Origin: Aureimonas sp. Leaf324
GTDB lineage: Bacteria; Pseudomonadota; Alphaproteobacteria; Rhizobiales; Rhizobiaceae
Direction of reading: 5' to 3'
Assembly: GCF_001423245.1 (NCBI RefSeq)
Contig: NZ_LMOH01000001.1
Span: forward strand, 340,563 to 404,562
DNA: 64,000 bases
The number at the start of each line of letters is the position of its first letter. The stretch's first letter is position 1. The translations under genes were made by a program, and so were the position numbers. The notes beneath the pieces were generated by a model. It was given only the letters and a program-made list of their open reading frames with translations. It searched no databases and was not told the origin of the DNA. Positions 38,005-39,857 of this stretch are shown one piece after another.

Positions 38005-38427
38005 ATGGCGATCGAACGCACCTTCTCCATGATCAAGCCCGATGCGACGCGTCGTAACCTCACCGGCGCGATCACCAAGATGCTGGAAGAGGGTGGCCTG
38101 CGCGTCGTCGCTTCCAAGCGCGTCTGGATGAGCCGTCGCGAGGCCGAGGGCTTCTACGCGGTCCACAAGGAGCGCCCGTTCTTCGGTGAGCTCGTCGAGT
38201 CGATGTCGGCCGGCCCGACGATCGTTCAGGTGCTCGAGGGCGAGAACGCCATCTCGCGCAACCGCGAGCTCATGGGCGCGACCAACCCGGCGCAGGCCGC
38301 CGAGGGCACGATCCGCAAGGCGCACGCCCTCTCGATCGGCGAAAACTCGGTGCACGGTTCGGACGCTCCCGAGACCGCCAAGGAAGAGATCGCCTACTGG
38401 TTCTCCGAGACCGAAATCGTCGGCTGA
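38005..38427 (+). CDS. ndk: Nucleoside-diphosphate kinase
   Basis: Balances nucleoside triphosphates by a ping-pong phosphohistidine mechanism. The 140-residue protein has the catalytic His117 in ENSVHGSD and the start [14 protein letters not shown]. Length and residue number match the E. coli enzyme. It is monocistronic, between its own promoter and a strong terminator. Confidence 0.98.
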
Positions 38428-38452
38428 ACTGAAGCATAGAAGACGTGACACG

Positions 38453-38485
38453 GGGCGGCGGATCGTAAGGTCCGCCGCCCTTTTT
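38453..38485 (+). terminator. Rho-independent terminator of ndk
   Basis: GGGCGGCGGA pairs with TCCGCCGCCC around a short loop, followed by TTTTT. It begins 25 bases after the ndk stop. Confidence 0.9.
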
Positions 38486-38657
38486 GTTGCCGGCTCGCAT
38501 CACTGCGGTAAGAGCAAGTCCCTCAGCGAACGGAACGACTTGCGACCGAATGTGACGTGTCGATGAATGGGAGTTCGCAGGCGCCGATGGACGGTGCGAT
38601 TTAGGACGCCGGGCATGGCCGGCATCGGCCGCAGCGCCACAGTGGGAGAGACGGCGC

Positions 38658-39392
38658 ATGGCGGTCATCGCCATCGGAAGCGTTCGCAGCGGCGGAACCT
38701 CGACACTTGCCCTGACGCTCGCCGGCGCGATCGCCGACGCTGGCGGATCGGTCCTTCTGATCGACGCTGCGCGAAACCCGGACCTCGTCCGCTGGTCCCG
38801 CCGCCCGGGGTGCCCCGACCTCATCTCCGTGGCTCGGCCGACCAACGATGAAGGGTTGCGGGAGCTGACGCATCTCGGTCGACGCGAGGGGCGTACCGTC
38901 GTCATCGACGCGGGGTTCAAGCGAGACCGCCTTCGAGCCGCCTTCGAAATCGCGCGGATGTCGCTGATCCCGGTTCGATTCTCTCCGCTGTCCGTCGCGG
39001 CGGCGGTCGAGACGGATCGCCTGATCGACGGCATCAACCGTCGCCGCTCCGGCGGGAGGGCCTTCGTCGCGACGGCCATCACCCGAATCTCGAGCCGCAT
39101 CGCGCGCACGGTCGAAAAGGAACTTTGCGAAAGCCGCACGGTCCGGCTGCCCGCCGGGCTTTCGCTGCGTGCCGCCTTTGAAGCGCCGTTTCTTCTCGGC
39201 GGCACGGTGCACAGCTTGAGCGACGGAGACGCGCCGGGGCTCGATCGCGCCCGCGCGGAGGCCGAGAGCTTTCTCTTCGAACTCGATCTTTACGGTCTGC
39301 GGCGCCCGGCCTGTCCGCTCGCGGCGCCATCGCTCGTGGCGAACATGGACGAGACGCCCGGCGATCGGGCTGGGATACTTGCTCCGGCCTGA
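38658..39392 (+). CDS. ParA/VirC1-like protein with degenerate P-loop
   Basis: A 244-residue protein with the layout of the MinD/ParA/VirC1 ATPase family: a P-loop region at residues 5-20, LLIDA at 34-37, TVVIDAG at 80-86 (Walker B) and IPVRFSPLSV at 104-113. The P-loop reads VRSGGTST (9-16) where ParA proteins have KGGxGKT[TS], so both the signature lysine and the catalytic lysine are missing. ATP binding may be lost or altered. No parB, plasmid or conjugation gene is near; ndk is upstream and moaE convergent. Function is unknown. Confidence 0.7.
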   Translation: MAVIAIGSVRSGGTSTLALTLAGAIADAGGSVLLIDAARNPDLVRWSRRPGCPDLISVARPTNDEGLRELTHLGRREGRTVVIDAGFKRDRLRAAFEIARMSLIPVRFSPLSVAAAVETDRLIDGINRRRSGGRAFVATAITRISSRIARTVEKELCESRTVRLPAGLSLRAAFEAPFLLGGTVHSLSDGDAPGLDRARAEAESFLFELDLYGLRRPACPLAAPSLVANMDETPGDRAGILAPA

Positions 39393-39395
39393 CCG

Positions 39396-39857
39396 CTACA
39401 GGCGGTGCCAGCGATCGGCAGCGGCGTCGTCGGTGTCCTTCGCCTCGACCCAGCCTCCGGCGGTGCCGTCGACGAGATGCTCGCGCTTCCAGAACGGAGC
39501 CTTCGACTTCATGTAGTCCATGAGGAACGAGGCCGCCTCGAAGGCGGCGTGGCGATGCTCCGAAGCGCAGGCGACGAAGACGATCTCCTCGCCGGGTGCG
39601 ATCATCCCGTAACGATGCACGCACCTGACGCCGAGCAGGGACCAGCGGCGGGCCGCCTCGTCGGCCATCTCGCGGATCGCCCGTTCCGCCATGCCGGGAT
39701 AGTGCTCAATCTCGAGCGCCGACAATCGCCCGCCCTCGTCGCGGCAGTAGCCAGTGAAGGTCACGACCGCACCGGCACGGCCGCCGGGGGCGGCGCGGCT
39801 TGCTTCGGCACCAAGATCGATCCGGTCGGACGTGACGGCGATGCTGACGTCGCTCAC
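39396..39857 (-). CDS. moaE: Molybdopterin synthase catalytic subunit
   Basis: Adds two sulfurs to precursor Z with MoaD as donor, giving molybdopterin. The 153 residues contain TFTGYCRDEGGRLSALEIE, HRYGMIAPGEEIVFVA and the active-site Lys region MDYMKSKAPFWKRE. It starts at GTG 39857 one base after the moaD stop, and converges on the ParA-like gene with a 3-base gap. Confidence 0.96.
   Translation of the reverse strand: MSDVSIAVTSDRIDLGAEASRAAPGGRAGAVVTFTGYCRDEGGRLSALEIEHYPGMAERAIREMADEAARRWSLLGVRCVHRYGMIAPGEEIVFVACASEHRHAAFEAASFLMDYMKSKAPFWKREHLVDGTAGGWVEAKDTDDAAADRWHRL

Follow-up and report, generated by a model that had tools for sequence, protein, structure and literature searches.

A conserved lysine-free ParA subfamily with an altered ATP site in Aureimonas and related genera

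The window analysed here is a 64,000-nucleotide stretch of the genome of Aureimonas sp. Leaf324 (NCBI RefSeq assembly GCF_001423245.1, contig NZ_LMOH01000001.1). It contains an intact gene for a protein of ParA fold, located between ndk and the convergent moaE gene (Table 1). The likely ribosome binding site of this gene is also found upstream in the two closest relatives shown (L056 and L033). An Rfam search of positions 38300-39700 detected no RNA element. A preliminary description of the gene, made from the letters of the window, stated that no partition gene is near, and the Pfam assignments of the two adjoining genes agree with this.

Table 1. Genes and sequence features at the locus, in window coordinates
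Feature	Position	Strand	Remarks
ndk (nucleoside diphosphate kinase)	38005..38427	+	upstream neighbour, same strand; PF00334, E 1.5e-52
Likely ribosome binding site GGAGAG	38645..38650	+	7 bases 5' of the ATG; upstream sequence
ParF/ParA-fold gene, group A copy	38658..39392	+	244 aa, lysine-free, intact; ATG start, TGA stop
Altered P-loop GSVRSG-GTST, residues 7-16	38676..38705	+	P-loop Lys replaced by T14, signature Lys by R10; one residue deleted
Motif 2 DAARNPD, residues 36-42	38763..38783	+	first Asp kept; catalytic second Asp replaced by Ala38
Walker B strand TVVIDAG, residues 80-86	38895..38915	+	Asp84 in 40/40 rows; next residue of ordinary ParA deleted
RFSPLS, residues 107-112, family-specific	38976..38993	+	Arg107 40/40, Ser112 40/40
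C-terminal block, residues 144-183	39087..39206	+	strongly conserved SRIAR..E, GL..RAAFEAPFL.GGT
moaE	39396..39857	-	convergent neighbour, 3 bases downstream; PF02391, E 3e-34

No Pfam or NCBIfam model scores above its cut-off with the window protein. The NCBIfam model ParA_partition (NF041546) matches residues 13-190 with an E-value of 5.3e-17 and 62 bits, against a curated cut-off of 180 bits; a second copy in the same genome (copy B, see below) reaches 67 bits. The name VirC1-like, given to the protein in the preliminary description, proved weak, with VirC1 scoring 11.8 bits over residues 1-47 against a Pfam cut-off of 24. AlphaFold2, supplied with an alignment of 10 sequences, predicts that residues 1-215 adopt a ParA fold (pLDDT 80, pTM 0.80). 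The solved structure closest to the predicted model is ParF of plasmid TP228 (Foldseek E 3.4e-12), the best fold match being ParF-ADP (Z 27.4, rmsd 1.7 over 202 residues). By sequence, too, ParF is the top PDB hit, with E 1.2e-4 for the single sequence and 7e-11 for a profile.

Relatives were collected by tblastn of the window protein against the window and 44 fetched loci, which yielded 44 matches, locus L074 giving none. Removal of four ordinary ParAs and six duplicates left 34 distinct rows, and six rows from other genera completed a set of 40. Twelve of these make up group A, located at the moaE place or branching with rows that are, and 28 make up group B (L041, L043-L048, L050-L052, L054, L055, L058, L059, L061-L065, L067-L069, L038, L082, L083, L085, L086 and L088). 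As a control we used ordinary ParA loci, that is, lower-scoring matches fetched as loci, which are a subset of all the matches listed; GGxGK[ST] and DxDP are present in 60/60 (57 distinct ORFs).

Alignment with ordinary ParA places a deletion after G12 of the window protein, with S15 and T16 matching the Thr residues that follow the P-loop Lys. The earlier reading of the Walker A motif as VRSGGTST, lacking both lysines, is correct for the window protein, in which R10 stands at the signature Lys and T14 at the P-loop Lys. As a statement about the whole family, a conserved loss of lysines holds for one of the two positions. The P-loop Lys is present in 0 of 40 distinct rows (Ser in 20, Thr in 16, Cys and Ala in 2 each), which refutes a local mutation, whereas signature position 10 is still Lys in 33 rows and is Arg in 7, including the window protein. 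Three further changes had gone unmentioned: the loop is one residue shorter in 40/40 distinct family rows, a residue is deleted after the Walker B Asp, and the second Asp of motif 2, at position 38, is replaced by Ala (27 rows), Gly (7) or Ser (6). Set against the hallmarks of the ParA/MinD deviant Walker A proteins, the family has the ParA fold, as judged from the predicted model and the PDB comparison, and the Walker B Asp (D84, 40/40), but neither KGGxGK[ST] with both lysines (P-loop Lys 0/40) nor the motif 2 DxD with its catalytic second Asp (0/40, versus 60/60 in ordinary ParA).

The altered site is itself strongly conserved. G7, G13, T16, D36 and D84 are found in 40/40 family rows and Ser or Thr at position 15 in 39/40; the full set of G7, S8, K/R10, G13, S/T15, T16, D36 and D84 is kept at each position in at least 39/40 rows, so that the Mg-side residues D36, Ser/Thr15 and D84 are retained. 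R39 is present in 36/40 rows, with Pro at this position in 15/15 ordinary ParA rows, and D42 in 39/40. Position 107 is Arg in 40/40 rows (Gln in 11/15 and Arg in 3/15 ordinary rows) and position 112 is Ser in 40/40 versus Asp in 15/15. From the alignment, R39, R107 and D42 look like charged residues near the altered site, their placement toward the nucleotide being putative. The outline of the C-terminal block is common to the lysine-free family and ordinary ParA.

Estimates of dN/dS by the Nei-Gojobori method range from 0.035 to 0.254 over 13 pairs, in two of which dS exceeds 1.3 and is near saturation; the family, altered loop included, is under purifying selection. Together with the fixed charged residues R39, D42 and R107 nearby, this makes the site look remodelled rather than decayed. 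The strand opposite to 38658-39392 is open along its entire length, as is common in GC-rich DNA, and might raise the suspicion of a reading-frame artefact or a decaying gene. We regard this as practically excluded: conservation refutes it, with dN/dS at most 0.254, and it is the plus frame that matches ParA_partition, while the opposite frame has no Pfam or NCBIfam match at E up to 1. Judged by its sequences, the lysine-free ParA subfamily is a conserved and apparently catalytically stripped group, a stronger case than the preliminary description had made.

The position of the gene, beside moaE and ndk, is kept as well. Copy A adjoins moaE in 9/12 group A rows and has ndk directly upstream in 7/12, and no homologue with a normal loop occupies the moaE place among the family members found. 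The three remaining A rows are A. ureilytica-type copies, of which that of Aureimonas sp. AU20 (L168, NZ_CP006368.1 414963-415709) lies on the 489-kb plasmid pAU20a; it is flanked on one side by an iron ABC transporter and on the other by a MarR regulator, followed by sbcD, and is annotated as a hypothetical protein. For copy B, recX is no more than about 5 kb away in 23/28 rows, and it is the adjacent gene in the 16 rows of the window's genus. Overall, 32/40 rows are at one of these two fixed places. In G043, a genome of another genus, A is found at ndk/moaE and recX is about 3.5 kb from B; with both copies at their places there, the duplication probably predates the genus. Identity falls to about 40% across the two paralogues.

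In a tree calculated without the loop columns, all 40 rows fall on one side of a long branch (100*, length 3.16); B forms one clade (98*), and A is not resolved as a single clade. The tree was made by a quick method with 15 chosen ordinary ParAs as outgroup and carries a long-branch warning for L112, its nearest ordinary row. One row, L063 (G040), groups with B in the tree, yet its neighbour is the ABC-F gene that elsewhere borders the A place, which hints that the A and B places may have exchanged copies.

No ParB-, ParG- or MinE-like gene was recognised around 14 loci, scanned mostly by eye, with Pfam applied only to the window's neighbours. A partition protein captured onto the chromosome and still at work on a replicon is a very improbable account of the family. 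Plasmid ParAs are its closest ordinary relatives in the plasmid collection, and one family copy resides on pAU20a; but the two fixed places, moaE for 9/12 A rows and recX for 23/28 B rows, and the lack of a recognised partition partner speak against it, as does the view that ParA partition needs ATP turnover.

A link to the Aureimonas rRNA-operon plasmid was considered separately and rejected. A. ureilytica reportedly carries its only rrn operon on a plasmid that has no partition genes (PMC10645730), and group A is present in A. ureilytica strains. However, the one 16S gene detected in the window's assembly (G000:C1:656691-658173) shares the 663-kb contig of the window, so that this strain seems not to belong to the rrn-plasmid type, and the family also occurs in further genera. 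Our rRNA search detected 16S in 6/21 genomes only.

Ala-Ala closes the variable tail of 28/28 group B proteins and forms the C-terminus of 3/12 group A proteins. Ala-Ala C-terminal ends are read by ClpXP, and a protease tag is possible for group B. As a degradation tag we set this aside as a side idea, since Ala-Ala is already enriched in ordinary ParAs (25/47, against 33/288 heuristic background ORFs) and the rows are mutually related.

Within the genus the family is found in 16/21 genomes, eight of them with two copies. Five genomes (G005, G011, G013, G014 and G017) have no member at E 1e-40, and there the family seems dispensable. In the wider genome family, where the best 18 or fewer candidates per genome were scored, 13/151 sampled genomes have a member (at least 272 bits), the next match being at 107 bits. 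Searches of samples of the order (397 genomes, E 1e-20) and the class (385 genomes, E 1e-22), with these strict E-values and at most the seven best candidates per genome scored, returned no new member beyond those already known (G000 and G040); the other matches reach at most 104 bits, and all those fetched as loci show ordinary loops. Named family loci comprise eight from Aureimonas and one from Fulvimarina, labelled Aurantimonadaceae in the tree output; the remaining loci come from the genome family to which the window belongs, and the lysine-free family spans further genera. A phage search with the window protein gave one weak match (H16), a ParA-like one at 34.8% identity, encoded by a 7-kb phage-labelled record from human faeces (MT837352.1, 1819-2409). 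Titles and opening lines of abstracts in the open-licence PMC literature yielded no description of the lysine-free family.

What might such a protein do? We infer that the window protein does not hydrolyse nucleotide, still binds it, dimerises and serves as a scaffold. The whole reading, to which we assign a probability of about 48% from the sequences, the predicted model and analogues, is that of a hydrolysis-dead, nucleotide-binding orphan ParA dimer acting as a stable scaffold or regulator; the preliminary description had likewise pointed to a regulator or scaffold, should the loss prove conserved. A chromosomal orphan of ParF type would carry a remodelled ATP site that is unable to drive the hydrolysis cycle of ParA. 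The shortened loop would probably still bind nucleotide, in the simplest case ATP together with Mg, and the protein would stay a long-lived dimer bound to DNA or a partner. The presumed analogues are engineered Asp-to-Ala ParAs locked as ATP dimers and the lysine-free BcsQ, which holds ATP.

The stronger case against hydrolysis comes from the lost catalytic Asp rather than from the missing lysines. In motif 2 of Myxococcus xanthus ParA, D58, D60 and N64 are described as coordinating the Mg ion and the attacking water (PMC12462528); by spacing, these residues would correspond to D36, position 38 and D42 of the window protein. According to the same source, the D60A variant, which no longer has the water-positioning Asp, shows no ATPase activity and assembles with ATP into a dimer that is highly stable. 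Soj D44A is reported to have crystallised as a dimer (PMC9178275). A locked, nucleotide-holding dimer is the simplest reading because loss of this Asp gives a stable ATP dimer in ParA and because BcsQ, with the same three replacements, is ATP-bound by the title of its R156E mutant structure (PDB 6ybb). The missing lysines alone do not amount to a loss of ATP binding: there is a BcsQ structure with ATP, and ATP binding is reported for TadZ (PMC10482377). Nor do they prove a loss of hydrolysis: Eubacterium rectale TadZ, which lacks both lysines, is described as having ATPase activity, and activity is said to survive a change of either lysine to Ala in a mycobacterial MinD homologue (PMC10482377).

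The BcsQ parallel is incomplete, the loop deletion of the family having no counterpart there, and this leaves room for a nucleotide-free pseudoenzyme, a fixed ParA-fold adaptor working through protein or DNA contacts. We consider it a doubtful alternative, though one to be weighed seriously. Loss of the P-loop Lys and the catalytic Asp in 40/40 rows, the shortened loop, the deletion after the Walker B Asp, the exchange of Asp (15/15 ordinary rows) for Ser (40/40) at position 112 and the strong conservation of the C-terminal block, residues 144-183, would all fit it; but an unused pocket should drift, and the site residues are kept in at least 39/40 rows across two paralogues.

The D42, R39 and R107 pattern, together with the TadZ and MinD homologue reports, also makes compensated or changed chemistry possible. 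In the compensated case, R39/R107 or K10 would stand in for the P-loop Lys and D42 for the catalytic Asp, and a slow ParA-like cycle would persist. D42, at the place of M. xanthus ParA N64 by spacing, could indeed replace the lost Asp; the charged residues R107 (40/40), R39 (36/40) and D42 (39/40) are mostly missing in the 15 ordinary rows, and there is a precedent in TadZ, where a lysine is reportedly supplied from an adjacent helix (PMC10482377). We nonetheless judge such an ATPase improbable: two catalytic groups would both need replacing, and the scan of 14 loci, mostly by eye, recognised no ParB/ParG/MinE-like activator gene. A re-engineered site appears to us just as improbable; there the phosphate-binding charge would have moved from the P-loop Lys to R39, R107 and K/R10, and the acid of position 38 to D42, within a shortened loop. 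Such a site could bind or convert another ligand, or keep ATP permanently, with the switch replaced by control of abundance, for example through the Ala-Ala end of group B.

The textbook case of a positional switch driven by ATP is the ParA family. A lineage that lacks both catalytic groups and has kept the altered site in two old paralogues raises the question of which ParA tasks need hydrolysis, and its sequences suggest that a ParA-type switch may have been turned into a lasting binding protein. It provides a case beside BcsQ, in which the same three replacements (Lys to Arg, Lys to Thr, loss of the catalytic Asp) are found, and the two can be compared as natural locked-state ParAs. There is also a gap in annotation, with no Pfam or NCBIfam model at its cut-off and one member deposited as 'hypothetical protein'.

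Among known systems, ParF (PDB 4e03, 4dzz and 5u1g) resembles the lysine-free family in fold and length, but has KGGSGKTT and DTDP, neither of which is intact in the family; it also has a ParB-type partner (by the title of 5u1g), and no such gene was recognised beside the family. The nearest ordinary relatives by sequence are small Rhizobiales plasmid ParAs (ParA_partition, VirC1) at 33-34% identity. They have the C-terminal RAAF..GGTL block in common with the family but keep GGxGK[ST] and DxDP (60/60 ordinary loci), both of which the family has lost. TadZ/CpaE, which acts in pilus localisation, is described as carrying an atypical receiver domain (PMC10482377), whereas the window protein consists of just the ParA domain, which begins at residue 1, and a short variable tail; Pfam gave no receiver match.

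BcsQ, a protein of cellulose secretion in E. coli, resembles the window protein in the site itself. Its Walker A is listed as RGGVGTT (PMC9178275), and the E. coli BL21 protein reads RGGVGTTT and DACP; as in the window protein, the signature Lys is replaced by Arg, the P-loop Lys by Thr, and the second Asp of motif 2 is lost. BcsQ, however, keeps the full loop length, while the lysine-free family is one residue shorter. The one experiment for which PMC7439463 mentions nucleotides with BcsRQ is a flotation test, and they had no effect there. Membership of the window protein in BcsQ was rejected, as the model scores 20 bits over residues 1-40 against a cut-off of 157.85 and the overall sequence is unlike; no BcsQ exceeds the cut-off in any of the 21 genus genomes, and no bcs cellulose operon accompanies the window copy, which is flanked by ndk and moaE, or, by eye, other loci (14 inspected). 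BcsQ and the window protein are hardly alike past roughly the first 40 residues (BLAST E 0.68; hhalign 17% probability over 33 columns), while the alignment with an ordinary small ParA covers 211 columns, so that convergence is the best reading of the BcsQ likeness. Lysine-free ParA relatives are already known in BcsQ and TadZ, and the novelty of the family described here lies in the subfamily rather than in the principle.
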